Assembly: GCF_004322395.1 (NCBI RefSeq)
Contig: NZ_SCTW01000071.1
Span: forward strand, 1-42,946
DNA from: Methylobacter sp.
GTDB taxonomy: Bacteria > Pseudomonadota > Gammaproteobacteria > Methylococcales > Methylomonadaceae
Length of the DNA stretch: 42,946 bases
Reading direction: 5' to 3'
Part shown: positions 16,685 to 41,403 of the stretch, piece after piece
Layout: every line of letters starts with the position of its first letter
How positions within the stretch are numbered: the first letter of the stretch is position 1
Made by a program: the position numbers and the translations under genes
Notes under the pieces: generated by a model
What the model saw: the letters and a program-made list of their open reading frames with translations, nothing else
Database searches by the model: none
Told to the model about the DNA's origin: nothing

Positions 16685-19600
16685 ATGAAACGCCATGCAT
16701 CCATGAATCGCGTCTATCGGCTTGTCTGGAGCCACGTCCATAAAATTTGGATTCCTGTAGCGGAAACCTCGCGGGGACGAACCAAAGGCTCCAGCCGCAA
16801 ATTGTTCGCGGCAGCTTTGTCGCTGACCGCCGCCGTCGCCCAGGCCGAACCGATCGGCGGGCAAGTCGTTTCGGGTTCCGGCAGCATCGAACAGTCGGGC
16901 ACTACCACCACCATTAACCAGGCCAGCCAGAACCTGTCTGTCAACTGGCAGAGCTTCAACATCGCCCCGCAGGAAACGGTCAACTTCCAGCAGCCTTCGA
17001 CTAGCGCCATCGCGGTCAACCGCATTGCCGATACCAACGGCACGCAAATTCTCGGCCACCTGAACGCCAACGGCCAAGTCTACCTGATCAACCCGAACGG
17101 CATCCTGTTCGGTCAGGGCGCGCAGGTCAACGTCGGCGGCCTGGTCGCCTCCACGTTGGATATGAGCGACTCCGCCCTGAACAGCAACGAAAGGACTTTC
17201 TCAGGTTCCGGCACCGGCAGCGTCATCAATAAAGGTACCATCACTGCGGCCAATGGCGGCTCAGTCGCGCTGCTTGGCAACACTGTCAGCAATCAGGGCA
17301 CGATCACCGCTCAGCTCGGCACCGTAGCATTGGGCGCCGGCAGCGCCGCGACGCTGACCTTTAATGGCAATAACCTGGTGAAGATGCAAATCGACCAAAG
17401 CGTACTGAACAGCTTGGCTGAAAATAGCCAACTGATCCAGGCCGAAGGTGGGCAGGTTATCATGTCCGCAGGTGCCCGAAGCGCCCTGCTAGCCAGTGTC
17501 GTCAATAACACCGGCGTCATCGAAGCGCGCACCGTCGAGAATCATGGCGGCGTGATTATTCTGGGCGGCGATATGGTCGTCAATACCGGCTCCCTGAACG
17601 CTTCAGGCAACAGCGGCGGCACTGTCGAGATTAGCGGCCGCAGCCTGTTGCAAGGCGGCGCGATCCATGCCGACGGCAATAGCGGCAACGGCGGCGAGAT
17701 CAAACTCAATGCCGGCGGCGCGCTGATCCAGACCGATGCCGGCGAGATCACCGCGAACGGCGGCGGCACGGGCGGCAATATCGCGCTCACCGGCGGCAGC
17801 TCCGCCTTTTTATCCGGCAAAGTATCCGCCAATGGCGACAGCGGAGGCCACGTTACCGCCACCGCACCGCAACTGACCCTTGCCGCCGCCAAACTCAGCG
17901 CCGACGGCCGGAATCAAGGCGGCGCCGTGCTGGTAGGCGGCGACGCTCACGGCGCCAACCCAGATATAGCGAATGCCGACCACACCAGCGTTAATTCTTT
18001 CACGACGCTCAGCGCCCAAGGACGTCAGGGCAAAGTGGTCGTCTGGGCCGACGACGTCACCGATTTCTTTGGTAGCGCCAAAACCGGCCCCGAAGGTTTT
18101 ATCGAAGTCTCCGGCAAGCAGACACTTAATTACGGCGGACAGGCCAATGCTGGCATGAATGGTAACGTGCTGTTCGACCCGACTAACCTGAATATCACCG
18201 CCAGCGCTCCCAGCCTGTTCTATCTTGATCTGGCCAACCCCAACCCGGCCGCCAATGAGAAGCATGGTAACGGCGGTGTGATGAGTCTTAGCTCCGGCAA
18301 TATCGTGGTGGCATCGCAGAACGACAGCTTTGGCGGAACAGATGCTGGTGCGGTGTATTTATATAATGGTAGCACCGGTGCACTGATTTCGACGCTGGTC
18401 GGAAGTGCGTCCGGTGATTTGGTGGGCAATGGCGGTATTACCGCGCTCAGCAACGGCAACTACGTGGTGAGAAGCTACCACTGGTCCAACGGCGCAATTA
18501 TGAACGTCGGCGCGGCGACCTGGGGCAACGGCCTTATCGGCACCACCGGCGTGGTATCCAGCGCCAACTCACTGGTCGGTACTACGGCCAATGATCAGGT
18601 GGGCCATGGCATTACCTCGCTCAGTAACGGCAATTATGTGGTAAGCAGCACCTACTGGAGCAACGGCGCGGCCACTGATGCCGGCGCGGTGACCTGGGGT
18701 AACGGCCTCACCGGCACTACCGGCGCGGTATCCAGCGCCAACTCGCTGGTCGGCAGCACGGCCAATGATTTGGTGAGTCTTGACGGCATTACCGCGCTCA
18801 ACAACGGTAACTACGTGGTTCATAGCTCCAGCTGGGACAACGGCGCGGTCACTAATGCCGGCGCGGTGACCTGGGGCAATGGCGCCGGCGGCACCACCGG
18901 CGCAATATCCAGCGCCAACTCGCTGGTCGGTACTACGGCCAATGATCAGGTGGGCGATGGCTTTCGCCCCATTATCGCGCTGAGTAACGGCAACTACGTG
19001 GTAAGCAGCTCCAGATGGGACAACGGCGCGGTCACTGATGCCGGCGCGGTGACCTGGGGCAATGGCCTCACCGGCACCACCGGTGCGGTATCCAGCGCCA
19101 ACTCGTTGGTTGGCACTACGGCCGGTGATCCTGTGGGCTTTGCAGGCATTACCGCGCTCAGTAACGGCAACTACGTGGTAAGCAGCTCCAGATGGGACAA
19201 CGGCGCGGTCACTGATGCCGGCGCGGCGACCTGGGGCAATGGCCTCACCGGCACCACCGGTGCGGTATCCAGCGCCAACTCTCTGGTCGGCACTACGGCC
19301 GGTGATCAGGTGGGCCTTGGCATTACCGCGCTGAGCAACGGCAACTACGTGGTAAGCAGCTCCAGCTGGGACAACGGCGCAGCCACAGATGCCGGTGCGG
19401 TAACTTGGGGTAATGGTGCCGGCGGCACCACCGGCGCGGTATCCAGCGCCAACTCACTGGTTGGCAGCACGGCCCAGGATCGGGTGGGCCTTGGCGGCAT
19501 TACCGCGCTCAGCAACGGCAACTATGTGGTGAGTAGTTACAACTGGGACAACGGCGCAACCACTGAAGCCGGTGCGGTAACTTGGGGTAATGGTGCCGGC

Positions 19601-21274
19601 GGCACCACCGGCGCTGTATCCAGCGCCAACTCGCTGGTCGGCAGCACGGCCCAGGATCAGGTGGGCTATTGGGGCATTACCGCGCTGAGCAACGGCAACT
19701 ATGTGGTGAGTAGTTACAACTGGGACAACGGCGCGGCCACTGATGCCGGCGCGGTGACCTGGGGCAATGGCGCCGGCGGCACCACCGGCGCAGTATCCAG
19801 CGCCAACTCGCTGGTCGGCACTACGGCCAATGATCAGGTGGGCGACATTGGCGGCATTACCGAGCTGAGCAACGGCAATTATATGGTGAGTAGCTCCAAC
19901 TGGGACAACGGCGCGGTCATTGACGCCGGTGCGGTGACTTGGGGCAATGGCGCCGGCGGCACCACCGGCGCAGTATCCAGCGCCAACTCGCTGGTCGGCA
20001 CTACGGCCAGTGATCAGGTAGGCCTTGGCGGCATTACCGCGCTGAGCAACGGCAATTATGTGGTAAATAGTTACAACTGGGACAACGGCGCGGTCATTGA
20101 TGCCGGTGCGGTGACTTGGGGCAATGGCGCCGGCGGCACCACCGGTGCGGTATCCAGCGCCAACTCGCTGGTCGGCACTACGGCCGGTGATCAAGTGGGC
20201 AATGATGTTAACACGCCGATGTACCACGGCAATACCGCGCTCAGCAACGGCAACTACGTGGTAAGTAGTTACAACTGGTCCAACGGCGCAATCATGAACG
20301 CCGGCGCAGTGACCTGGGGCAATGGCCTCACCGGCACCACCGGCGTAGTGTCCAGCGCCAACTCGCTGGTCGGCAGCAGTGCCAATGATCGGGTGGGCTA
20401 TGGCGGCATTACCGCGCTCAGCAACGGCAATTATCTGGTGAGGAGTATTCTTTGGGACAATGGCGCTGCTTTCAATGCCGGCGCAGTCTGGCTTGTCGCT
20501 GATCCTTCCAATCTGGCAACGATGGTCAACAATTCTATTGGCAACACCAGCCTCAGCCCAACCGCCATTGCCGGCGCGGCGGTTACCGGCAGCACCGTGA
20601 CGCTGCAAGCGAGTAATAATATTTCGGTCAATAGCGCAATCAACGTCGCGGGGCGCTTGAATCTGGTTGCAGGCAACGCGATGACGTTGAATGCCGGCAT
20701 CACCTCCACCGCCACCGGCGATGCCCTGCAATTATCCGGTCTCAGTTTCACCAACAACGCCGGCGCGAATGCCCTCTCTACTCCGAACGGCCGTTGGCTG
20801 GTATGGTCCGCGAACCCTGCCAATAACACGCTAGGCGGCTTGACAGCAAACTTTACCCAGTACAGCGCCACCTATGACACCACAACGCCTTCTGGCAGCA
20901 GCAGTAGTTTTCTTTATTCTATGCCGGTAGTCACATCTCTATCAACATCAACATCAACATCAACATCAACGTCGCCTGCACCGGCTCCCGAGCCGACGCA
21001 CGAACCCAACAAACCGCCTGAATCGGTGACTAATGTGACAGCCCTGCTGACGGCGAATCTTACATCGACCACAACAAACAGTCAGCCAGCCATCCTCTAC
21101 AAGTCTTCTTTTTTGAATAAAGAGACGCAAGGTTCCGGCCAGAACTTTGAAGAGAGCTCATCCTCGCCTAAGTCCAATAGCGGATTAACGCAAAATAACA
21201 CGATAACCATCGGTGGCAGTGACATGATCATCAATATCGTGGATGACGGCGTGAAGCTACCGGACAATAATTAA
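16685..21274 (+). CDS. Two-partner secretion exoprotein (filamentous haemagglutinin-like TpsA)
   Basis: 1529 residues. An extended signal peptide region (MNRVYRLVWSHVHKIWIPVAE) is followed by a hydrophobic stretch ending AVAQAEP. The TPS secretion domain follows, with NPNGILFGQGAQVNVGGLVAST, then Gly/Asn-rich beta-helix repeats to about residue 520. Residues 584-1267 are eleven near-identical repeats of about 58 residues, listed separately. The C-terminus holds more beta-helix sequence, a Ser/Thr microsatellite stretch and a Pro/Glu-rich segment. AAGGA lies 8 bp before the ATG at 16685; M7 is an alternative. It should be exported by the adjacent TpsB and act at the cell surface, perhaps in adhesion. 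GC content is visibly higher than in neighbouring genes, suggesting transfer. Confidence 0.9.
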   Translation: MKRHASMNRVYRLVWSHVHKIWIPVAETSRGRTKGSSRKLFAAALSLTAAVAQAEPIGGQVVSGSGSIEQSGTTTTINQASQNLSVNWQSFNIAPQETVNFQQPSTSAIAVNRIADTNGTQILGHLNANGQVYLINPNGILFGQGAQVNVGGLVASTLDMSDSALNSNERTFSGSGTGSVINKGTITAANGGSVALLGNTVSNQGTITAQLGTVALGAGSAATLTFNGNNLVKMQIDQSVLNSLAENSQLIQAEGGQVIMSAGARSALLASVVNNTGVIEARTVENHGGVIILGGDMVVNTGSLNASGNSGGTVEISGRSLLQGGAIHADGNSGNGGEIKLNAGGALIQTDAGEITANGGGTGGNIALTGGSSAFLSGKVSANGDSGGHVTATAPQLTLAAAKLSADGRNQGGAVLVGGDAHGANPDIANADHTSVNSFTTLSAQGRQGKVVVWADDVTDFFGSAKTGPEGFIEVSGKQTLNYGGQANAGMNGNVLFDPTNLNITASAPSLFYLDLANPNPAANEKHGNGGVMSLSSGNIVVASQNDSFGGTDAGAVYLYNGSTGALISTLVGSASGDLVGNGGITALSNGNYVVRSYHWSNGAIMNVGAATWGNGLIGTTGVVSSANSLVGTTANDQVGHGITSLSNGNYVVSSTYWSNGAATDAGAVTWGNGLTGTTGAVSSANSLVGSTANDLVSLDGITALNNGNYVVHSSSWDNGAVTNAGAVTWGNGAGGTTGAISSANSLVGTTANDQVGDGFRPIIALSNGNYVVSSSRWDNGAVTDAGAVTWGNGLTGTTGAVSSANSLVGTTAGDPVGFAGITALSNGNYVVSSSRWDNGAVTDAGAATWGNGLTGTTGAVSSANSLVGTTAGDQVGLGITALSNGNYVVSSSSWDNGAATDAGAVTWGNGAGGTTGAVSSANSLVGSTAQDRVGLGGITALSNGNYVVSSYNWDNGATTEAGAVTWGNGAGGTTGAVSSANSLVGSTAQDQVGYWGITALSNGNYVVSSYNWDNGAATDAGAVTWGNGAGGTTGAVSSANSLVGTTANDQVGDIGGITELSNGNYMVSSSNWDNGAVIDAGAVTWGNGAGGTTGAVSSANSLVGTTASDQVGLGGITALSNGNYVVNSYNWDNGAVIDAGAVTWGNGAGGTTGAVSSANSLVGTTAGDQVGNDVNTPMYHGNTALSNGNYVVSSYNWSNGAIMNAGAVTWGNGLTGTTGVVSSANSLVGSSANDRVGYGGITALSNGNYLVRSILWDNGAAFNAGAVWLVADPSNLATMVNNSIGNTSLSPTAIAGAAVTGSTVTLQASNNISVNSAINVAGRLNLVAGNAMTLNAGITSTATGDALQLSGLSFTNNAGANALSTPNGRWLVWSANPANNTLGGLTANFTQYSATYDTTTPSGSSSSFLYSMPVVTSLSTSTSTSTSTSPAPAPEPTHEPNKPPESVTNVTALLTANLTSTTTNSQPAILYKSSFLNKETQGSGQNFEESSSSPKSNSGLTQNNTITIGGSDMIINIVDDGVKLPDNN
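18431..20488 (+). repeat. Coding tandem repeat array in the TpsA exoprotein
   Basis: Eleven full copies and a partial twelfth of a unit of about 174-198 bp encode GITALSNGNYVVSS, then WDNGA, AGAVTWGNG, GTTGAVSSANSLVG and a variable linker ending DQVG. A degenerate copy precedes the array (18275-18430, VMSLSSGNIVVAS...AGAVYLYNG). Copies differ mostly at residues next to SS, at LTG versus AGG, and in linker length (GFRP in copy 3, NDVNTPMYHG in copy 10). DNA identity between copies is high, so length change by recombination is likely. Confidence 0.92.
20941..20970 (+). repeat. Hexanucleotide microsatellite (ATCAAC)5 within tpsA
   Basis: Five perfect ATCAAC units encode alternating Ser-Thr in the C-terminal linker of the exoprotein. 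Because the unit is two codons long, slippage would change linker length without breaking the frame. Confidence 0.85.
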
Positions 21275-21366
21275 AGGCAACCTGAACAAAAAACATCATC
21301 AGGCCAAGCGGGACACCGCTGACTCTGCCCGATGTTAGCGCGAATACCGGACACTAAAACAATACC

Positions 21367-23214
21367 ATGACATTTGATACCCGACCTCAAACCAAGCAAT
21401 CATCCTTATTCCCCCGTGCTTCAGTCGGGAGCCGGCTCCTGAGTAGCGGAAGCGGCTTCAGCCACCCATCGACTATCTTGGCAGAGCGACTGAAGTCGCC
21501 CCCACAGCCTGCCCGTGGTAGTGAGCACGTCCTGAACCCATTGTTGGCGTCCCTGCTCGCGCTGGCTCCGCTGGCGGTACAGGCCGAGCCCGTCGCACCC
21601 AATTCCGGCTCGATGCTGCAACAGATCAAGCCGGTCACGCCGCCCCCGCCGTCGCCTACCGGCACCGGCCTGACCATCCAAGGCTCCAGCGCCGGTAAGC
21701 TGCCTGAGAGCGCACCGTTTGCAGTCAAGTCCATCCAAATCACCGGCAACGCCATGATCGATGTTCAAACCCTGCACACGCTGGTCGCGGACACCGAAGG
21801 CCAAAGCATCACCCTGCCGCAACTGGGCGAGCTGGCCGACCGCATCACCGCCTATTACTACGACCACGGCTATCCGCTGGCTCGGGCCTACATCCCGGCT
21901 CAGACCATCCAGTCCGGCATTGTGCGCATCGAGGTCATGGAAGCGAAGTACGGCCAAATCCAGCTCGACAACCGTAGCGGCGTTGACGATGCGCTGCTGA
22001 ACGACGCCTTGGCCACGTTGCACAGTGGGCTGACCATCGGCCAGTCCGGGCTTGATCATGCCCTGTTGCTGTTGTCCGACATCCCTGGCGTTACCGCCAC
22101 CTCGACCTTGAAGCCGGGCGCGGCCGTCGGCACCTCCGACCTGGTCGTGGACGCCAGCGCCGCCCCGGCGGTTACCGGCAATCTGGTCCTCGACGACTAT
22201 GGTAACCGCTATACCGGAAGGCCAAGGGCCGGCGGCATAGTGAACTGGATCAACCCGCTGCACCACGGCGATGTACTGAGCTTAAGCGGCTTGACGTCCG
22301 GCAGCGACATGAACTACGGGCGGCTGGCCTACGAATCACTGGTCAACGGCCTTGGCACCCGCTTGGGCGCGGCTTATTCGGCGCTCGACTACACGCTGAG
22401 CGGATCGCTGTCGGCGCTGGAGGCGCGCGGCACCGCCCAGGTCGGCAGTGTTTGGGGCCTGCATCCGCTGGTGCGCAGCCGGGATTTCAACCTATACGGA
22501 CAGATCGGGTACGACCGGATGGAGCTGCGCGACCGTGTTGACGCCAGCGACATCAAGACCTACCGCCATCTCGATAACGGCACAATCAGCGTGTCCGGCG
22601 ATGCCAGGGACAGCCTGCTGTCCGGCGGCATCAATACCTGGATTTTTGGTTGGACTGGCGGGCATGTTGCCTTCGACAACGATGAGGCGCAATTTGCCGA
22701 TAGAGCGACCGCAAAAACTCAAGGCCTATTCTCGAAATGGAACGCAAATTTGTCGCGGCTGCAAAGCCTGAGCCAGAAGGACGGCTTGTATCTGGCCTTC
22801 GCCGGGCAATGGGCGCAGGATAACCTGGACTCGTCGAAGAAAATGATTGTCGGCGGCCCGTACACCGTGCGCGGCTACGACATGGGCGCGGTTTCCGGCG
22901 ACAGCGGCTATATCGGCACTGCCGAACTTCGGCACGATCTCAGTTCAGGCCCGTTCGGGCAATTCCAGGTGGTCGGCTTCATCGACAGCGCGCAGGTAAC
23001 CATCAACCAGAATCCCTGGACCGGGGGCACCAACCGGGCCACGCTCAGCGGCGCCGGTGCCGGACTTAACTGGCTAGGCCCCAAGCTCCACTGGGTTGGC
23101 GCCAGCCAATTGAATGCACGGGCTTTCGTCGCCACCCCGGTCGGCCCGGTGCCGGAACTGGTCGGCAAGACCGACGACGTGCGGGCTTGGCTGGAAATGG
23201 GCATGAGGTTTTGA
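21367..23214 (+). CDS. Two-partner secretion transporter TpsB (ShlB/FhaC family)
   Basis: 615 residues. This outer membrane Omp85-type barrel should export the preceding exoprotein. A hydrophobic leader lies unusually deep, at about residues 56-73 (LLASLLALAPLAVQA). It is followed by a Pro-rich linker, a POTRA domain (VKSIQITGNAMIDVQTL, YYYDHGYPLARAYIPAQTIQSG), the polypeptide transport region and a 16-stranded barrel ending in Phe. The VRGY motif of the L6 loop is at 501-504. The first 50 or so residues are encoded by a dispersed hairpin repeat and look like an acquired extension. It begins 92 bp after tpsA. Confidence 0.92.
   Translation: MTFDTRPQTKQSSLFPRASVGSRLLSSGSGFSHPSTILAERLKSPPQPARGSEHVLNPLLASLLALAPLAVQAEPVAPNSGSMLQQIKPVTPPPPSPTGTGLTIQGSSAGKLPESAPFAVKSIQITGNAMIDVQTLHTLVADTEGQSITLPQLGELADRITAYYYDHGYPLARAYIPAQTIQSGIVRIEVMEAKYGQIQLDNRSGVDDALLNDALATLHSGLTIGQSGLDHALLLLSDIPGVTATSTLKPGAAVGTSDLVVDASAAPAVTGNLVLDDYGNRYTGRPRAGGIVNWINPLHHGDVLSLSGLTSGSDMNYGRLAYESLVNGLGTRLGAAYSALDYTLSGSLSALEARGTAQVGSVWGLHPLVRSRDFNLYGQIGYDRMELRDRVDASDIKTYRHLDNGTISVSGDARDSLLSGGINTWIFGWTGGHVAFDNDEAQFADRATAKTQGLFSKWNANLSRLQSLSQKDGLYLAFAGQWAQDNLDSSKKMIVGGPYTVRGYDMGAVSGDSGYIGTAELRHDLSSGPFGQFQVVGFIDSAQVTINQNPWTGGTNRATLSGAGAGLNWLGPKLHWVGASQLNARAFVATPVGPVPELVGKTDDVRAWLEMGMRF
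21409..21510. repeat. Dispersed hairpin repeat in the tpsB leader
   Basis: The segment contains CTTCAGTCGGGAG, GGCTTCAGCCACC and the 14-bp palindrome GCGACT-GA-AGTCGC (21486-21499) followed by CCCCCACA. This pattern is characteristic of short intergenic repeats in related genomes (from memory; not searched). Here it is read in frame as the N-terminal residues of TpsB ahead of the signal sequence. Confidence 0.6.
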
Positions 23215-27098: not shown

Positions 27099-29798
27099 AT
27101 GACAATTAAACAAATATCGAAGTTAGTCAGTTTGACACTTGCCATTATTATTATTGGTTTCGCGGTTGCTGTCAGTTGGTCGTTAAATCAATTAAACCAA
27201 GCTTTTGCATCGGTCGAATTTTTTGGCCAGCAAAAAGATAAAATCTTTACCCAGATCAGTCAGCCGATTTTCAGCTATTTACTCACAGGCGAAGCTACCG
27301 TACTCGGTGAAGTTGAACGAGCTGCCAATCAAATCAAAACTGAAGTTGAAGGACATACCAACCTATCAGCTTCATTACAAGCACCTTTTGTTGGACTTAT
27401 CGATGAGTTGCAACAAACGACTTTGGCGGAGCTTACCGCCGCAGGTAAGCTGGCTGACCCGCAAGTGCTGCTGATAAATAATGAGAAACAGTTGTCACAG
27501 CATCTGCAAAAACTATTGTTATATGTTAAAGAAGCGCAAGGCGCTTCTCAATCGAAGAAACAGCTTTATTTGAAGTTAGTGGGTGACTCTCAGGCTGCAC
27601 TAATAAACCTAGCAAGAGCACGGCAAAGTTTTTTTACCTCTCGCAAACAAATGTCGCCGGATAATATTAACCGCCCCTTACAAGAGCTGATTGCTTTGGC
27701 TGGCGAATTAAAGAACTTGCCTTTGCTCGGCGTTATGAAACAAGAATCAGCAGCCAGTGATGTTTTGAGTTTCGGTGAAGCGGAAACAAAACAGTCCGAA
27801 GACAAAGCGATTGAACCGATCAGCGAAATTCCGTCATTGCTGCAACACTATAGTAAGGATATGGAGTTAGCCTTGAGAATCGCTCAGGATAAAGTCACAG
27901 GTCAGGCAAAGGTCAATCAGCAACTCAGCAATCTACAGCAGCGGTTGCTAACGCTGGAAGCTGAACTCACCAGTGATTACCTACACTATGAGCGCTTAAC
28001 ACTCATTATTATAGGTGTATGTTTATTATTGATAATTTCAGCGGTATTGTTCTGTATTTTCGGTGGAGCGCGTATTTTGCGCAGGGTGTCGGGCCTGGAG
28101 TCGACCATGTCAAACATTGCGCATACCCAAGATTTATCTCTGCGAGCTGAGGCTTTGCATAATGATGAAATCGGTAGTATGGCGCAATCCTTCAATTCGA
28201 TGGTTGAGCAACTGCAAGAGTCATCGAAGCTTCTCAAACAGAAGATCAATGACATTCAAACAATGCTGCAAAATATGCCGCAAGGTTTGCTAAGTTTTGA
28301 TGCTCTAAACAAGATCAACCCGGAATATTCGGCTCATTTGGAAAAAATACTGGAGACCGATCAGATCGCTGGAAATGACTTAATCAATTTAATTTTTGCA
28401 GACTCTAACTTAGGTTCGGACGCAATTTCGCAAATTGCAGCCGTTGCTGGCGCTTGTGTGGGAGAGGACGCCATGAATTTCGAGTTCAACCAGCATTTGC
28501 TTGTTACTGAAATCGAGAAAGAAATGCCGGGCGGCTTGAAGAAAGCCCTTGATTTGAATTGGGCGCCGGTGGTTAATGAGATTGATGTGGTGGAGCAAAT
28601 ACTACTGTGTTTACGAGATGTGACTGAGTTGCGCGAATTGAGCGCTGAATCTGCCGAGCAAAAACGTCAACTAGAAATTATCGGGGAGATTTTGGCCGTC
28701 AGCCAGGAAAAATTTCACCAGTTCATCACTTCAACTAAAAACTACAAGGCAGAAATTGAAAACATAATTCGTGATAATCCGAACGGCGGTTTGGATGCAA
28801 TTAACGCTATGTTTAGAAATATGCACACCATCAAAGGAAATGCCAGGACTTTTGGCTTGAAGAATTTAACCGATCTGGTTCATAGCATTGAATCGATTTA
28901 TGCTGAAATGCGCCAACCCAATTCTACTGTTGAATGGGATCAAACTCGCTTGCTGGATGATCTGACGAAATTACGTCACTTGGTTGATCATTACGCCAAC
29001 ACCAATGAAGTCAGTCTTGGCCGCAAAGGCCCCGGCCGCAGAGGCGACGTCGAGAAATACCTTATGGTTGAGCATGAGAAAATTCAGGAAGCAATCAATT
29101 TACTGGAAAAGATCAATCATTCCAACATTCACGATTTGATCGAAGCCAAAAGAGTTGTGCGAAGAACGCTAAGGCTACTTGGAACGGAACCCCTTGATAC
29201 CGTGTTCGCTTCGATTGTTGAATCGTTGCCGGCGTTGGCGCAAAGCTTGGGTAAGCAGGAACCCGAAGTTTCAATAAACAACGGGGATCTACAGCTGAAA
29301 AGCCAAGGCGTTGGCGTGATCAAAGACATTTTTACGCATCTGTTCAGAAATTGCGTCGACCATGGATTGGAAATGCCTGCCGATCGTTTGGCCAATGGCA
29401 AGCCAGCGCAAGGGCGTATTGCTGTAGCCATGGAAATAGAAGACGACCAGCTCAAAATATCCATAAAAGACGACGGCTGCGGTCTTGCCCTGAACAAAAT
29501 CCGTCAAAAAGCATTGGCCAATGGCTTGATGCAGGAAAATGAAAATCTGAACGATGAGAGAATCGCTGCGCTGATTTTCCTTCCAGGGTTTTCAACAGCT
29601 GACAAACTTACCGACATCTCAGGGCGTGGTGTTGGCATGGATGCAGTTATTGGCTTCGCCAGAAAAGAAGGCGGGCATGTCAAAATTAATTTCCTGGACA
29701 ACAAGGAAGGTTTTGACCATCGAGCATTTGAAACGGCTGTCTATTTTCCTGCAAATTACGCGGTGAGCATCGAAGAACAGCTAATGGCGGCAACATGA
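27099..29798 (+). CDS. Membrane hybrid kinase: HAMP, PAS-like, Hpt and CheA-type ATPase
   Basis: 899 residues. Two membrane segments (about 8-30 and 299-322) enclose a helical periplasmic domain. A HAMP domain (about 325-377), a PAS-like region (about 390-525), an Hpt domain with HTIKGNARTFGL (phosphorylatable His576) and a CheA-type ATPase follow. The ATPase has the N-box LFRNCVDHGLE at about 748, DDGCG at 791 and GFSTADKLTDISGRGVGMDAV ending about 850. Unlike CheA it has no CheW-like P5 domain and no P2, and it is itself a transmembrane sensor. It probably phosphorylates the CheY at 32582 and perhaps other receivers. First gene of the chemosensory-like operon. Confidence 0.9.
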   Translation: MTIKQISKLVSLTLAIIIIGFAVAVSWSLNQLNQAFASVEFFGQQKDKIFTQISQPIFSYLLTGEATVLGEVERAANQIKTEVEGHTNLSASLQAPFVGLIDELQQTTLAELTAAGKLADPQVLLINNEKQLSQHLQKLLLYVKEAQGASQSKKQLYLKLVGDSQAALINLARARQSFFTSRKQMSPDNINRPLQELIALAGELKNLPLLGVMKQESAASDVLSFGEAETKQSEDKAIEPISEIPSLLQHYSKDMELALRIAQDKVTGQAKVNQQLSNLQQRLLTLEAELTSDYLHYERLTLIIIGVCLLLIISAVLFCIFGGARILRRVSGLESTMSNIAHTQDLSLRAEALHNDEIGSMAQSFNSMVEQLQESSKLLKQKINDIQTMLQNMPQGLLSFDALNKINPEYSAHLEKILETDQIAGNDLINLIFADSNLGSDAISQIAAVAGACVGEDAMNFEFNQHLLVTEIEKEMPGGLKKALDLNWAPVVNEIDVVEQILLCLRDVTELRELSAESAEQKRQLEIIGEILAVSQEKFHQFITSTKNYKAEIENIIRDNPNGGLDAINAMFRNMHTIKGNARTFGLKNLTDLVHSIESIYAEMRQPNSTVEWDQTRLLDDLTKLRHLVDHYANTNEVSLGRKGPGRRGDVEKYLMVEHEKIQEAINLLEKINHSNIHDLIEAKRVVRRTLRLLGTEPLDTVFASIVESLPALAQSLGKQEPEVSINNGDLQLKSQGVGVIKDIFTHLFRNCVDHGLEMPADRLANGKPAQGRIAVAMEIEDDQLKISIKDDGCGLALNKIRQKALANGLMQENENLNDERIAALIFLPGFSTADKLTDISGRGVGMDAVIGFARKEGGHVKINFLDNKEGFDHRAFETAVYFPANYAVSIEEQLMAAT

Positions 29799-29801
29799 AC
29801 A

Positions 29802-30007
29802 ATGGACGAGCATGCGATTGGCTGTTTTATTCCCAATGACGACATCATTCAGTACAAACCGTCGCCTGCCATCGACAAATCGTGTTCAATAATTAATTTT
29901 TCGAAGCGCTCAAGAATTCGTTTAAGCACATCGTTTTGAACAATCCTGACAGCGCGAAAATTTACGCTTTATCAGCGCAGTCTTTGAAGAATTTTCGAAC
30001 CAAATAG
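29802..30007 (+). pseudogene. Frameshifted small ORF between kinase and MCP-like gene
   Basis: An ATG 3 bp after the kinase stop opens MDEHAIGCFIPNDD..., which stops early at 29937. In a second frame the sequence continues FFEALKNSF...LNNPDSAKIYALSAQSL...RTK to a stop at 30005-30007. Adding one T to the TTTTT run at 29897-29901 fuses the two into a single 68-residue frame. It is therefore a small gene broken by one base, a sequencing error, or a programmed frameshift. No family recognised. Without it the operon would have a 247-bp gap. Confidence 0.5.
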
Positions 30008-30045
30008 ACTGTCTGTTTACTTCTGAGATCAATAAGTAGATCACT

Positions 30046-31002
30046 ATGGAAAATACAATTCTAACTGCTGCATTGGGTTTTTTATTCGCGTCCGGCCTGA
30101 GTATAGCTTTGCGGCGTATCAGTAAAAAAACGCTTATAGATGTGACAGTTACACAGCAGACTGCTGCTGCAAGTTTGACAGAGCAACTCGTTACAGCCGA
30201 AGAAAAAGTAAATCGATATGAACAAGAACTGCAATTAAAAATTGCAGACATGAACTACCAATTAGAGCAGTTCAAGCTCATGGAGCAAGAAAAACATAAA
30301 CTATCTGCCCAAGTGAGCCAACTTCAGCAAAATCATGAATTGAAGCTTGGTCTTTTGGAAAAAGAGATCAAAAACAAACTGAGTTCTTACGAGCAGGCGT
30401 TGGAACTAAAAAGTGAGGAATTGAATCGCCAATTTGAGCAATCGAAGTTCCTGGCACAAGAAAAAGCCGAGCTTTTTGACCAGATTGACCAGCTTCAGCA
30501 AAAACATGGCACGGAGCTTAGCCGCTTGGAAGAGCAAGGAAAGGATGAGAAGCGAGATTTACTTGAAAAAATGAATTATCTGGCAAATGAGATAAGTCAA
30601 GTTGCTAAATTTGCCGAAGTCTTCGAACGTTGGCATACCGACATGAATTCATTGATGATTCAAAATACGGAAATGCATTTGCAAAACGCCAAGTTTTCCA
30701 TGATCGTTCAAGATATTGTCATCTTATCGTTTAACGCTGCGATCGAAGCGGCCCGAGCGGGCGAAAGTGGTCGCGGATTTGCCGTAGTGGCCGCTGAAGT
30801 CCGTAAACTTGCCACAGATTCGGAAAAACTTTCTAAGGATTATGGCAAGAATCTATATAAGAATGACTGGATAACTACAGCGACATTCCAGGACATACAG
30901 GCAGGAGGAAAGATGATTACATCGGCTTTGGTTGGTATTGATGTGGCCTGTAAGAATCTGATGAATAGTATAAAAATAACTGAGACCATCGAAAATGATT
31001 AG
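30046..31002 (+). CDS. Membrane-tethered coiled-coil MCP-like protein
   Basis: 318 residues. One N-terminal membrane segment (about 5-22) is followed by a long coiled coil that contains a 57-residue tandem duplication (YEQELQLK... at 58 and YEQALELK... at 115; LQQNH at 93 and LQQKH at 150). Residues 222-257 carry a shortened chemoreceptor signalling tip, with [28 protein letters not shown]. There is no periplasmic ligand domain and no HAMP. It resembles a receptor hairpin mounted on the membrane by a coiled coil, and may gather or control the kinase. It overlaps the next gene by 8 bp. Confidence 0.85.
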
Positions 31003-31546
31003 TGAGCAGGCGCAAAGTGGCTTTGATCACATTTTTAAAAAAGCGGTGCTGGGAAATATTTCATCCTCTGCCGACGATAACTGTGAAATAGAACCCGTTG
31101 ATGACTTGGAAGAAGTTAATGAAAATGAATTCGTTGTTCTGACGATTTCATCGGCTTTTTTTCGATTCTTGACACTTTTTCATTTTGATAGCGATGATGA
31201 TGCCACAAAAAATTATTTCTTAAGAAATTCTAACCTTGAGGTAGAAGACAACAGCGCGTTTCTCGACGCTTTTCAAGAGGTTTGTAATATTTGTTGCGGT
31301 GTGATGAACAGAGAGCTGCACAAAAGCTATCTTTTCTTGGGGATGTCAACGCCCTATATTTTATTAAGACAGTGCGTACCCTTCGTCTCAGCTCTTAACC
31401 CTGGGTATGTCAAACATTACAAAATCACTATTAATCACTCGTTAGTGCTACACGCTACTTTATGCATTTGTGACTATGACATTGTGGATTTTACAGTGAA
31501 TACCAGTGCAGATGAAGACAGTACCGGAGAACTAGAACTTTTTTAA
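30995..31546 (+). CDS. CheX-like protein with GELELF tail
   Basis: 183 residues. The core (about 44-170) looks like CheX/CheC phosphatases: [17 protein letters not shown] contains the E-x2-N-x3-G active-site motif as Glu95, Asn98 and Gly102. Only one such half-site is seen, as in CheX. These enzymes strip phosphate from CheY-type receivers. The first 43 residues are acidic and likely disordered. The last six residues, GELELF, are identical to those of the next protein. It overlaps the MCP-like gene by 8 bp and is probably cotranslated. Confidence 0.8.
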
Positions 31547-31570
31547 CAGCGGACACTATAGGATTTAAGC

Positions 31571-32557
31571 ATGAGTGATGAAATGCAATTAGTAAGTAAG
31601 GTTTTGGTTTTGGATAACTCTCCGGAATGTTTTATACAAATTAAGCAATTTTGCGATCAAAACGGGCTTATCGGTTTGAAGGTCACTTCTACCAATATCA
31701 TGGCCATTTTGAGCGCTTACGTTGACTTGGGCGCGATTTTGTTGTCGGACAATTATTGTGAGTCGCAGGCTGATACGCTGGATTTAGCGCAACAAATACA
31801 TAGAGCAAGACCCGAATTACCTATCGTACTGCGCAAAACATCAACATCCAATTTTGATGATCTGCCGGAAAAACAACGGAAACTGTTTTGCGCCACTTAT
31901 ACGATTGATAACATGTCACCGCTTCGGAAAGTTATCGATGAATATATTTTTAGCCTCGTTTATCCCAATGCATTGGTCAGAGGAATTTCTGAGCTTACAG
32001 TAAGCACTTTGGAAAATCTAAGCACTTTAGAGAATCGTTTTAAGCATATCAAAGTGATTACTGAAACGCCTTATATTGTCAGGGACCGGATAATCTTCGG
32101 TGAGGTATGCAGCCTGATTCCGCTGGAAAGCAGCTGGTGCCGGGGGTATATGATGTTGCAAACGGAAGAAGGCGGCATCCTTGATGTGCTTGGGTACAAT
32201 GAATTAACGATGAACGAAGGCCCTGCGGCATTCAGGACAGTAAATAATATTTTGGCTGAACTAACTAATCTTCTTTGGGGAGCTTTCAAGACACATTTTA
32301 TTGCAGCTGACGATCCAGGTCCCGGTTTTGCGTCAGAAGTGCCTATTGTCATCAATCATCAACATAAATACATTTCGTTTGGTTCTGAAAATCCCCATCT
32401 CTGTTTCAAATATATACTAACGGATGAGAACAATAGCCACTTTATTCCAGTTTATCAATGGTTTGCATTCAATCTATATTGGTCGCCTGAGGATTTCAAA
32501 GAAATTTATGCATCTGTTGATGATTTTGTTGATTCGGGTGAATTGGAATTATTTTAA
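31571..32557 (+). CDS. Degenerate receiver fused to a CheX-like domain, GELELF tail
   Basis: 328 residues. Residues 10-130 resemble a receiver domain (KVLVLDNSPECF; AILLSDNYCESQ with Asp60 at the phosphorylation site), but one acidic pocket residue is Asn16 and the conserved Lys-Pro near residue 112 is absent. This suggests a pseudo-receiver. Residues about 165-310 form a CheX-like domain, with ILAELTNLLWGAF giving E-x2-N-x3-G at Glu230, Asn233 and Gly237. The C-terminus ends SGELELF, as in the preceding protein. It probably acts on the adjacent CheY. It lies 24 bp after the first CheX gene. Confidence 0.75.
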   Translation: MSDEMQLVSKVLVLDNSPECFIQIKQFCDQNGLIGLKVTSTNIMAILSAYVDLGAILLSDNYCESQADTLDLAQQIHRARPELPIVLRKTSTSNFDDLPEKQRKLFCATYTIDNMSPLRKVIDEYIFSLVYPNALVRGISELTVSTLENLSTLENRFKHIKVITETPYIVRDRIIFGEVCSLIPLESSWCRGYMMLQTEEGGILDVLGYNELTMNEGPAAFRTVNNILAELTNLLWGAFKTHFIAADDPGPGFASEVPIVINHQHKYISFGSENPHLCFKYILTDENNSHFIPVYQWFAFNLYWSPEDFKEIYASVDDFVDSGELELF

Positions 32558-32581
32558 TAACTATTTGTGGAGCGTTAATTT

Positions 32582-32947
32582 ATGGCGAAAATTTTACTCG
32601 TTGATGATTCAAACACTGTCAGAGATGAGGTGGGAGGGTTCTTGACAAAAAATGGCTTGGAAGTAATTACTGCAGTTGATGGAAAGGATGGTCTTAACAA
32701 ACTTAAAGCTGATCCTGGTATCAAACTTATAGTGAGCGACGTGAATATGCCCAATATGGATGGGTTAACTATGGTTGAAAAAATTCGTAGTGAGTTGGGA
32801 AACAACGCAGTAAATGTGATTATGCTAACGACAGAGAGCAATCCGAGTATGAAAGAGCGAGGAAAAGCAGCTGGGGTCAAAGGTTGGATCGTTAAGCCAT
32901 TTAAGGGTGAGAGCGTCCTTGAGACGTTTAGGAAGCTGTCAGCATAA
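32582..32947 (+). CDS. CheY-like single-domain response regulator
   Basis: 121 residues, a lone receiver. Asp8 and Asp9 form the acidic pocket, Asp53 is the phosphorylation site (LIVSDVNMPNMDG), Thr83 is the switch residue and Lys105 (VKPFKG) is the conserved lysine; all are intact. There is no output domain, so it must act by binding another protein or as a phosphate sink. Last gene of the operon, 24 bp after the receiver-CheX fusion. No flagellar motor genes are adjacent. Confidence 0.93.
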   Translation: MAKILLVDDSNTVRDEVGGFLTKNGLEVITAVDGKDGLNKLKADPGIKLIVSDVNMPNMDGLTMVEKIRSELGNNAVNVIMLTTESNPSMKERGKAAGVKGWIVKPFKGESVLETFRKLSA

Positions 32948-38744: not shown

Positions 38745-39626
38745 ATGAGCCACACCAATAACAACTTTAGCAATACCCCTGCAAGTTTGGCTAAAAACAA
38801 CCTACTAATGGATTGCTATCGGCATATGCAATCCGATGACCTGGTGTTGCCCACTATCCCGGATGTATCTTTTAAGATTCGTCGCGCCATTAATGATGAA
38901 AAATCCAACATCTCTTCAATAGCGCGTGTAGTGCAAATTGATCCGTCAATTACGGCTCGACTGATACAAATTGCCAACAGCCCTTTATATGTAGGCCGAA
39001 AAAAAATTGAAAGCTGTCCCGAGGCATTAACCCGACTGGGTTTGAAAGCAGCTCAGGACATTATTACCTCGTTTGCACTAAAGTCGGTATTCAACGCCAA
39101 ATCGCCGGTTATTCGTAAAAAAATGGCGGAATTATGGACGCATAGTAGTTATATTGCATCGATCAGCGCCGTCTTAGCTCATAAAATTCCAGGCTTTGAC
39201 CCGGACCGGGCAATGTTGGCCGGACTGATTCACGATATCGGTATCGTGCCTATTTTGACTTATGCCGATAATCATCCCGATATTATTGCCAACCCTAAAG
39301 ACCTGGTAGAAACAGTGAGGGAATTACGCGCCGATATTGGTGTGCAGATTATACGTCGATGGGATTTCCCGGAAGATTTTGAAGACGTGGTGAGCAATGC
39401 CGAAAATTGGTTTCGTAATGACAATAAGCCATCGAGTTATGCAGATATCGTGATGATTTCGCAGTTGCACAGTTTTATCGGCAAAATTGATATAAAAAAA
39501 ATACCTAAAATAAACGACCTGCCCGCTTATAAAAAACTGGCAGTTCAGTTGGATGCAGACGACAGCATTAATATACTTGATGCCGCCAAAGATGAAATCG
39601 AGCATATTCGACAAATGTTGGCTTGA
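38745..39626 (+). CDS. HDOD-domain signalling protein
   Basis: 293 residues. The HDOD domain covers most of the protein: LPTIPDVSFKIRRAINDEKSNISSIARVVQIDPSITARLIQIANSPLY and later LAGLIHDIGIVPIL, with the HD pair retained. No other output domain is attached. HDOD proteins regulate motility, biofilm or type IV pili through partner binding rather than hydrolysis. It lies 16 bp before the FliK-like gene and is probably cotranscribed with it. Confidence 0.9.
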   Translation: MSHTNNNFSNTPASLAKNNLLMDCYRHMQSDDLVLPTIPDVSFKIRRAINDEKSNISSIARVVQIDPSITARLIQIANSPLYVGRKKIESCPEALTRLGLKAAQDIITSFALKSVFNAKSPVIRKKMAELWTHSSYIASISAVLAHKIPGFDPDRAMLAGLIHDIGIVPILTYADNHPDIIANPKDLVETVRELRADIGVQIIRRWDFPEDFEDVVSNAENWFRNDNKPSSYADIVMISQLHSFIGKIDIKKIPKINDLPAYKKLAVQLDADDSINILDAAKDEIEHIRQMLA

Positions 39627-39642
39627 AGCAATGCACTGCTAA

Positions 39643-41403
39643 ATGGATATTAACTCGCTAATAAACACTCAAACCCTGTTAACCCCTAACAGACTGATAG
39701 AGAACAGTTTAAACCTGAAAGTTGGGCAACAGCTTGACGCAAAAATAATCAATGCCGATATACAAGCAGCGAAAAACGCTATTACTTTATCGTTAGGCGA
39801 TAAAAATATTACTGTGCAAAGCAGTCAGCCTATTAAGCTAAATATTGGACAGGAGCTAAAAATCCAGGTTACTCAAGTCGCCCCTGTCATCGAATTTACA
39901 GTTCTCGATCCATTACTCAAACTAAAAAGCCAAGACGTTGAATTACGCTTAAAACTAATTTCGACCGCCAGGGATGGTGGAAGTATCGCAGCCGGTAGGG
40001 AACCGGCGCGATCGACCGCCAGGGATGGCGAAAGTATCGCAAACGGTAAGGAACCGATGCGACCAACAGTTGATGAATATGCTTCATCGCCCGTAAAACT
40101 GCTATTAAACGTAAAAATAACCGGCATCATCAACGATAAAATCCAGTTACTGGTTTTGACCGATACTCCACCAACAGCGCAATCAGGCAACAAGCAAACC
40201 GTACCGATTACTATTGACCGAACTCAACTAACTAACGCGTCTTCTGATTTAAAAGTTGGGCAAAATCTAAATCTGGAAATCTTAAAAACAGGAGCTACAC
40301 CGGAATTTAAGATTATTCCTACTGCTAATATCATTCCTGAAGCAAAAATAGCCGAATTTATAAAACAATTTCTACCGAGACATGAAGCTTCACCCATTTT
40401 CTTAAATCAGTTAATAAAAGATTTGCCGGAACTATTGAAAAATAGAAGCGTTCCCCAAGCTCTAAAAGATATTGCCGTAAAAATAGTCCAAAACCTGCCG
40501 CCAAAAGAACAGTTGATCACCAGCCAAGGACTTAAGCTGGCAATTGCGAATTCAGGGTTGTTTTTTGAAGCCAAGCTGCCTGCAATGGCTCAAGCTGAAT
40601 TAATTAAAGAACTACCGCAACTAATAAAAAATGAAAGCGTGCCTCAATCATTGCAACGTATTGCCGCTGAAATATTACAGAACCTGACGCAAAAAGAGCC
40701 ATTGCTTAATGGCTCGGGGACTAATTCGAAGCCTATTTATGAGTCCCTAGTATTTTCACCCTCAACAGACACCGCTATGAATGCAGAAGGGAACATACCC
40801 AAAGCAGGCGCTTTTGGCGATGTCGAACTCATTACCGGGGATTTTAAAGCCAATTTACTTAAATTTATTCAAGCTTTAAAGCAAGAAATCACTCATCAAA
40901 GCGAGCAGCACTCCCTTCCAATCGATCTTGACCTGCTCAAGAACCTGCAACATAAAACTGAAAACACCGTAGCCAAGCTAGTTCTGGATCAATTGATGTC
41001 CCTACCTAAAGAGGACAACCTAAAGCAGTTATGGATTATCGACATTCCTTTCGTAGACAGACAACAGGCTGAATCGATCAGAATTGAAGTGCAGCGGGAC
41101 AAGGAAAACAAACGACAATCCGATAACGGCGACTGGTCGGTTAATATCACCATTACACCTCCGGGACTAGGTACTATTCATTGCATAGTTTCCTACCGGA
41201 ACGATGTTATCAACACCTTTTTCAAAAGCCAAAACATTCAAACGACTGAACTCATTAAACACAACCTTGATTATTTGAAAAAGCAACTTGAAGAATCGGG
41301 TTTAAAAACAGGACACATAGATGCTCGCGTTGAAGCTCAAAAAACGCAACCAGTGCATCCACATCAATTGACCGGAAAAAAATTGTTTGATGATAAAGCA
41401 TAG
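39643..41403 (+). CDS. FliK-like hook-length control domain protein
   Basis: 586 residues. The last 150 or so residues resemble the C-terminal domain of flagellar hook-length control proteins: LWIIDIPFVDRQQAESIRIEV, WSVNITITPPGLGTIHCIVSY and a terminal LDYLKKQLEESGLKTGHIDA. The N-terminal half is low-complexity with repeating VGQ-L and LP-ELLKN-SVPQALK-IA motifs (twice, about residues 260-285 and 325-350). Two tandem 17-codon repeats lie at about 107-140. FliK sets hook length, but no other flagellar genes are here, so it could be a stand-alone relative with another job. Confidence 0.75.
   Translation: MDINSLINTQTLLTPNRLIENSLNLKVGQQLDAKIINADIQAAKNAITLSLGDKNITVQSSQPIKLNIGQELKIQVTQVAPVIEFTVLDPLLKLKSQDVELRLKLISTARDGGSIAAGREPARSTARDGESIANGKEPMRPTVDEYASSPVKLLLNVKITGIINDKIQLLVLTDTPPTAQSGNKQTVPITIDRTQLTNASSDLKVGQNLNLEILKTGATPEFKIIPTANIIPEAKIAEFIKQFLPRHEASPIFLNQLIKDLPELLKNRSVPQALKDIAVKIVQNLPPKEQLITSQGLKLAIANSGLFFEAKLPAMAQAELIKELPQLIKNESVPQSLQRIAAEILQNLTQKEPLLNGSGTNSKPIYESLVFSPSTDTAMNAEGNIPKAGAFGDVELITGDFKANLLKFIQALKQEITHQSEQHSLPIDLDLLKNLQHKTENTVAKLVLDQLMSLPKEDNLKQLWIIDIPFVDRQQAESIRIEVQRDKENKRQSDNGDWSVNITITPPGLGTIHCIVSYRNDVINTFFKSQNIQTTELIKHNLDYLKKQLEESGLKTGHIDARVEAQKTQPVHPHQLTGKKLFDDKA
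39961..40062 (+). repeat. Two tandem 51-bp repeats within the FliK-like gene
   Basis: Two 51-bp units, 39961-40011 and 40012-40062, each begin TCGACCGCCAGGGATGG and encode STARDG-SIA-G-EP-R in frame. The block has the look of a dispersed intergenic repeat (CCGCCAGGGATGGCGG type) that has inserted into a coding region without shifting the frame. Confidence 0.75.

Follow-up and report, generated by a model that had tools for sequence, protein, structure and literature searches.

How is a kinase of the CheA type controlled when the parts that usually join such kinases to their receptors are missing from its gene cluster? The P5 domain of CheA, together with CheW, is held to link receptors to CheA. 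The question is raised by a module at positions 27099–32947 of contig NZ_SCTW01000071.1 from a Methylobacter sp. with a 4.59 Mb genome; 'the window' here means the whole stretch of DNA analyzed, 42,946 nucleotides. The module consists of five open reading frames (ORFs), at the positions given in a preliminary description of this DNA:

27099..29798, + strand: kinase, 899 amino acids (aa)
30046..31002, + strand: protein resembling methyl-accepting chemotaxis proteins (MCP-like protein), 318 aa
30995..31546, + strand: CheX1, 183 aa
31571..32557, + strand: CheX2, 328 aa
32582..32947, + strand: CheY, 121 aa

The MCP-like and CheX1 genes share 8 bases. With confidence a little better than even, we favor the view that a single-protein receptor-kinase phosphorylates the CheY of its module, that CheX resets this CheY, and that motility is the output.

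The kinase is composed, in order, of the following parts:

residues 1–19: predicted transmembrane segment TM1
residues 302–320: predicted transmembrane segment TM2
28071..28220, + strand: HAMP domain (residues 325–374, Pfam E 1.7e-10)
28224..28628, + strand: PAS-like region (about residues 376–510)
28719..28973, + strand: Hpt domain (residues 541–625, Pfam E 3.6e-11)
29088..29690, + strand: end of P3 plus P4, the CheA-type ATPase (residues 664–864)

TM1 and TM2 are separated by a region of ~280 residues. In a search of PDB sequences, the Hpt domain aligns to CheA P1, and residues 664–864 to the P3-end and P4 of the CheA in 6s1k (E 2.1e-39). A P3-like hairpin precedes the ATPase, the alignment to CheA starting at residue 664, inside P3; a HATPase_c Pfam match occupies residues 744–863. 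The phospho-accepting histidine of the Hpt domain, His576 (MHTIKG), is invariant in an alignment of 19 rows (A1), and in the same alignment the stretch between HAMP and Hpt is strongly conserved, with a mean column identity of 69%. This stretch finds no Pfam PAS match in the window kinase; it is presumably PAS-like, and we name it so. Pfam matches to CheW, CheY-binding (P2) and H-kinase_dim are absent from the kinase up to E=1, and because it ends 35 residues past the P4 match, too few for P5, it has no P5 domain. The canonical CheA of a relative (locus L009), searched with the same library, displays all of Hpt, CheY-binding, H-kinase_dim, HATPase_c and CheW. The composition proposed in the preliminary description (transmembrane segments, HAMP, PAS-like, Hpt and CheA ATPase, with neither CheW-like domain nor P2) is borne out.

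The input end of the kinase varies among relatives. The kinases of the closest named relatives, also Methylobacter, are 89% and 75% identical to that of the window. Non-methanotroph relatives have a shorter region between the TMs (which lie near 9–27 and 187–205), and in the one Burkholderiales kinase scanned (L034) this region matches the receptor sensor 4HB_MCP_1. The N-terminus of the window kinase is shared with a protein of L043 (74% over residues 1–362) that carries an MCP signalling domain and is, in other words, a true receptor. The kinase of L067 is 656 aa long with an N-terminal PAS_3, and in L049 a Reg_prop/Y_Y_Y sensor precedes an Hpt-ATPase core of the same type. The preliminary description placed sensing in the kinase, and the L034 sensor and the N-terminus shared with the L043 receptor suggest that this is probably correct. 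The L049 gene (4276–8460) encodes a 1394-aa two-component propeller sensor with Hpt and ATPase, and has a CheY-like gene nearby.

The MCP-like protein keeps a receptor's tip and little else:

30046..31002, + strand: N-terminal TM, long coiled coil, ERWH (residues 194–197), tip, and short return helix with TFQD
30703..30855, + strand: receptor tip (residues 220–270)

Its Pfam MCPsignal match (6.2e-16) covers model positions 49–95 of 172 only, and neither a sensor domain nor HAMP was found in it; taken with the N-terminal TM, this supports the earlier picture of a membrane-tethered tip that lacks a sensor. Among 32 MCP-like proteins, 28 have the N-terminal TM (it was not found in those of L012, L013, L014 and L028) and all have ERWH and TFQD; that of L068, outside this set, reads NRWD. 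The predicted structure (pLDDT 84.5, pTM 0.39) consists of two antiparallel helices, 4–237 and 239–317, the latter being the 79-residue return helix, and Foldseek searches with it lead to receptor cytoplasmic domains. A methylation consensus is present in 2/32, including the window's protein, at residue 42.

The tip itself is altered on one side. In what we take to be Tsr numbering (Q374–A407), the tip from N381 to A407 is much like that of eight canonical receptors, namely those that one expression picked from the loci fetched. On the return side, E385, R388, G390, G393, G395, F396, V399, A400, L406 and A407 are kept in 32/32 MCP-like proteins and R404 in 31/32, E402 and E391 in 24/32 and 19/32. 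The preceding Q374-T375-N376, in contrast, occurs in 8/8 of the canonical receptors, and among the MCP-like proteins T375 and N376 are found in 0/32 and Q374 in 3/32.

CheX2 is recognized by Pfam as CheX (E 4.8e-9, domain residues 179–280). CheX1 is under the Pfam cut-off (E 0.015), and its predicted structure (pLDDT 90.7), which in a PDB structure search retrieves CheX first (5e-7) and then FliM, is that of a CheX fold. CheY is a single receiver domain with D8, D9, D53, T84 and K105, and the assignment of two CheX-like proteins and a CheY in the preliminary description accordingly stands. The CheX proteins carry an ExxN motif, E95xxN98 in CheX1 and E230xxN233 in CheX2, that is kept in 32/32 CheX1 and 22/22 CheX2 proteins. 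The extra N-terminus of CheX2 (about 6–128) is weakly receiver-like (hhalign probability 73 over 25 columns). We considered and rejected recent duplication as the origin of the pair: hhalign aligns just 22 columns, at the tails. These tails are encoded as follows:

31526..31546, + strand: GELELF-stop tail of CheX1
32537..32557, + strand: GELELF-stop tail of CheX2, after VDDFVDS (CheZ-like)

No other genes in the Methylobacter genome have an exact GELELF C-terminus. Exact GELELF ends 24/32 CheX1 and 13/22 CheX2 proteins, and GELELF or a close variant ends all 32 and all 22, versus 0/1023 of the remaining ORFs in these loci that reach 150 aa, with antisense ORFs included. The residues before the CheX2 tail (VDDLVES, for example) resemble the tails of CheZ (such as VDDLLESLGF) from cluster-bearing genomes: one tail expression fits 21/22 CheX2, 6/7 CheZ (the tails read, from 24 loci fetched), 0/32 CheX1 and 1/1023 other ORFs. 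At the CheZ loci that gave no tail, the match was weak or the gene was not in the frame chosen. The C-terminal tail of CheZ binds CheY.

How widespread is the module? A kinase scan of species genomes, which relies on exact short peptides of the window kinase and therefore finds near relatives only, returned 42 loci. Judged by locus titles, these are from Methylobacter, other Methylococcales, Burkholderiales, Chromobacterium, Silvimonas and Formivibrio (the last three of which we take to be Neisseriales), Methylophilaceae, Thiotrichales and Sulfuricellaceae. In draws of genomes that include the Methylobacter itself, the kinase is found in 5/398 of the phylum and 14/301 of the order, and CheX1 in 5/369 of the class. 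We examined 51 loci and counted 40, dropping L047 and L048, which have no kinase match; L041, L043 and L046, which are receptors or receptor-like ORFs with the same sensor (L043 alone was scanned); and L011, L012, L016, L018, L036 and L037, where the contig ends. L049, a distant propeller-sensor kinase without a cluster, was kept. Presence of the kinase was not counted because most loci were found by way of it; L066, L067 and L068 were found via CheX1, the last of them lacking an adjacent kinase. Where there is room to judge, the MCP-like and CheX1 genes occur together in 39/40 loci, a conserved neighborhood of the kind that the preliminary description suggested looking for. CheY is present in 37/40 and CheX2 in 27/40. 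The order kinase–MCP-like–CheX1–CheX2–CheY is found in 20 loci (including L050 and L070, which are blurred by over-long ORFs), kinase–MCP-like–CheX1–CheY in seven, kinase–CheX2–CheY–MCP-like–CheX1 in six, kinase–CheY–MCP-like–CheX1 in three, and other orders in four. The grouping thus recurs across beta- and gammaproteobacteria, with its genes arranged in four orders. One cluster, on an Ideonella plasmid (L051, 9760–16091), has a broken-looking CheY and adjoins an integrase, reverse transcriptases and two avd genes of diversity-generating retroelements.

If these proteins act as their relatives do, a stimulus sensed by the kinase itself would pass through HAMP to the PAS-like region, within a kinase dimer, and on to the CheA-type ATPase, which would phosphorylate His576 of the Hpt domain. 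With sensor and kinase in a single polypeptide, coupling would need neither P5 nor CheW. Homology and co-occurrence suggest that the CheY encoded in the operon would then receive the phosphoryl group from the Hpt domain. CheX1, and CheX2 where present, would remove it by means of the ExxN site. The C-terminal tail that the two have in common might bring them to CheY, or to some other partner in the module, with CheX2 behaving like CheZ in this respect. The preliminary description had the two phosphatase-like proteins resetting CheY; the two ExxN proteins are indeed there beside it, and the resetting is what we infer from them. For the MCP-like protein, the preliminary description proposed a role as scaffold or regulator. 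It would hold its bare tip at the membrane and might either be a scaffold beside the kinase or connect the module to ordinary CheW arrays; the data are compatible with both. The flagellar switch is the probable output, to judge from co-occurrence with FliM. Judging from the 26 window proteins scanned, neither CheR nor CheB accompanies the module, and reset would be left to CheX.

The association with flagella is as follows. FliM is found in 42/43 cluster-bearing genomes versus 278/398 in the phylum draw. Within the order, 13/14 genomes with the kinase have it versus 156/287 others (Fisher p 0.003) or, for genomes at least 90% complete, 13/13 versus 130/215 (p 0.002). The 42/43 and 13/14 overlap, some genomes being in both (G003 and G990, for example, are the same, with the same FliM coordinates). 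Also in favor of our reading are the position of the module in L009, 0.6 kb after a canonical cluster with MotB and CheZ among its genes, and the absence of a CheZ match from the Methylobacter genome.

Several points weigh against the reading that we favor. All of the steps beyond composition are inferred. The FliM tests ignore kinship, and in the phylum draw the association is not significant (5/5 kinase genomes versus 233/333, p 0.17); two bearers, G009 (the genome of L016) and G1063 (73% complete), have no FliM match. CheX2 is missing from 13/40 loci, and CheZ is present in 17/19 of the cluster-bearing genomes tested, the Methylobacter and G653 being the two without a match. Both tail expressions were written post hoc, and the ORFs to which they were compared include antisense ones. 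Comparison of distance matrices gives lower agreement when the kinase is involved (0.61–0.83) than among the other four proteins (0.84–0.95), and such agreement can arise from kinship alone. Five Paraburkholderia loci (L031, L033, L034, L035 and L045) adjoin genes of exopolysaccharide type. Finally, CheW is present in every cluster-bearing genome, 43/43 (35/35 plus 8/8). The preliminary description had allowed that its reading would fall if a cheW gene elsewhere always accompanied the cluster and, to the letter, one does. Independence from CheW cannot be claimed, therefore, and the module may need it. The same description had CheW, CheR and CheB missing from the window. For CheW this holds for the contig, on which a whole-genome search found none, and not for the genome, which has seven matches elsewhere. 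For CheR and CheB it holds for the 26 window proteins scanned, a set that left out three antisense ORFs 180 aa or more in length (10824, 19454 and 21421) and the other ORFs of less than 180 aa. As a separate matter, G004–G009, G357, G652 and G653 contain ORFs of ~490–570 aa that each match CheW three times and so encode a triple-CheW protein; G005 has no CheW matches besides these.

The ubiquity of CheW lends itself to a different explanation, that the module is an accessory of ordinary arrays, its tip binding the CheW and CheA of the normal system and so bringing to them a second kinase and phosphatases. The return side of the tip, with ten residues kept in 32/32 and R404 in 31/32, is in keeping with such binding, and in L009 the module begins 0.6 kb after a canonical cluster that encodes MotB, CheZ, CheW, CheB, receivers and a five-domain CheA. 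However, the QTN before the tip, universal in the canonical receptors, is absent from 32/32 MCP-like proteins, E391 and E402 are kept in only some of them (19/32 and 24/32), and the return helix is a mere 79 residues. The kinase has no P5, and no CheW gene lies within the five-gene cluster, that of L009 being ~5 kb upstream, in the canonical che cluster. We regard the accessory explanation as possible, if on the unlikely side. About as doubtful, at the opposite extreme, is the most ambitious interpretation: that the module represents a self-contained, CheW-less and methylation-free chemosensory class, in which a receptor is fused to a P5-less CheA core, a detached tip controls the kinase by direct contact, CheX is recruited by a dedicated C-terminal peptide, and the flagellar motor gains a second, array-independent input.

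The output could also be something other than motility, with CheY acting on an exopolysaccharide or cyclic di-GMP (c-di-GMP) target. The Paraburkholderia cluster is apparently inside an exopolysaccharide locus, lying between glycosyltransferase and GDP-mannose 4,6-dehydratase genes (scanned in L034, with homologues in L031, L033, L035 and L045); an EAL gene adjoins the cluster in L008, and similar ORFs are found somewhere in six loci, L008 included. There is precedent, too, in pdcABC, whose diguanylate cyclase is under the control of a response regulator and a phosphatase of the CheC/CheX kind, according to the available part of the report (PMC9899790). FliM association speaks against such an output, as does the lack of a constant neighbor: our search for a conserved sixth gene was unsuccessful, the recurring ORFs being antisense or present in no more than six loci. 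We think it improbable. Most improbable of all is that the module is what decay has left of a canonical chemotaxis cluster after loss of P5, CheW, CheR and CheB. The parts are missing, and individual clusters do look damaged: in L066 (5233–10283), the kinase ORF stops early, in the PAS-like region, with DDE_5 and IS1 transposase genes upstream of the kinase and downstream of CheX1, and the CheY of L051 seems broken. Nevertheless, relatives are without the same parts, family members preserve the catalytic residues as well as the motifs specific to the module, and conservation in distant relatives speaks against decay for the family as a whole.

Returning to the receptor-kinase reading, how does the module compare with systems already known? 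It shares the TM-sensor-TM-HAMP-PAS-kinase layout of ordinary membrane sensor kinases, but has Hpt and a CheA-type ATPase rather than HisKA, and CheX and receptor-tip partners. Unlike a canonical chemosensory system, its gene cluster is without CheW, CheR and CheB (the neighbors of relatives were mostly outside the scan for the latter two, and the CheB of L009 is upstream, in the canonical cluster). The MCP-like protein has the conserved tip and helical hairpin of methyl-accepting chemotaxis proteins, but it has neither sensor nor HAMP, its QTN is replaced, its return helix is short, and a methylation consensus is rare. CheX1 and CheX2 have the fold and ExxN of CheX/CheC phosphatases, and differ from them in the GELELF-type tails, the receiver-like N-terminus of CheX2, and the sub-threshold Pfam score of CheX1. 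The VDDLL-type tail of CheZ resembles that of CheX2, and CheX may act, as CheZ does, as a CheY phosphatase; the CheZ fold is unrelated to that of CheX. The Hpt and P4 ATPase of the kinase are homologous in sequence to those of CheA, whereas its own sensor, HAMP and PAS-like input, and its want of a P5/CheW domain, set it apart. In a survey of 13,673 CheA proteins, 100% had a CheW domain (Berry et al. 2023, PMC10782961); from what is accessible of that paper, archaeal CheA were gathered with this domain as the query, so that a P5-less kinase could not have entered that part, and because it lacks P5, the module kinase is not a CheA as there defined. In pdcABC, too, a response regulator is the target of a CheX-type phosphatase, but a kinase or receptor-like protein is not among its three genes as described in the available part (PMC9899790). 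The Methylobacter genome itself has a locus with this c-di-GMP operon layout (L096, C51 about 57910–58143), where ORFs 923–2891 encode, in a row, a receiver, a CheC/CheX and a PAS-GGDEF-looking protein, the middle ORF alone having been scanned. It accounts for the genome's third CheX match, which we set aside as a separate regulator/CheC-CheX/GGDEF locus and not part of the module. The preliminary description recognized no named system of this composition, and full-text literature searches (titles and abstract openings, most subscription papers being outside their coverage) turned up no published description of one.

Little else in the vicinity seems to belong to the module. A sixth gene had been proposed:

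29802..29939, + strand: 45-codon ORF between the kinase and MCP-like genes, not conserved, probably not a gene

This ORF, which the preliminary description counted as a component, has no relative in other loci, and in many relatives the kinase and MCP-like genes are adjacent without it; we do not retain it. The intergenic stretch 29802–30045 is partly common to L008 and may be what is left of a small gene. Downstream, the next gene after CheY is lpxK, convergent with it. Promoter-like sites number 21 versus 13.3 (consensus matches only), and a terminator scan is at chance level (6 versus 5.6). PHROGs gave no match for either CheX. In NCBIfam, CheX1 and CheX2 are without any match, and the kinase, MCP-like protein and CheY match parts of families only, far under the curated cut-offs. 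Elsewhere in the window, an ORF with a FliK-type Flg_hook domain (39643–41403), a flagellar-type gene ~7 kb from the module, follows an HDOD gene (38745–39626), and 16685–23214 encodes a two-partner secretion (TPS) pair: the TPS protein is 1529 aa long and contains 12 or more DUF5650 repeats, and its transporter is of the ShlB type.

Beyond the preliminary description, then, we observe co-occurrence with flagella, common C-terminal tails, an altered receptor tip and variable kinase input. A conserved family that combines a CheA core with a receptor tip, and does so without P5 or CheW in the cluster, shows which parts of the chemosensory machine can separate, and the module offers a small system in which to study the effect of a receptor tip on a kinase in the absence of CheW. 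It recurs in flagellated beta- and gammaproteobacteria, where it may signal to the flagellar motor, and so suggests a kinase route to the motor that surveys based on the CheW domain would miss.

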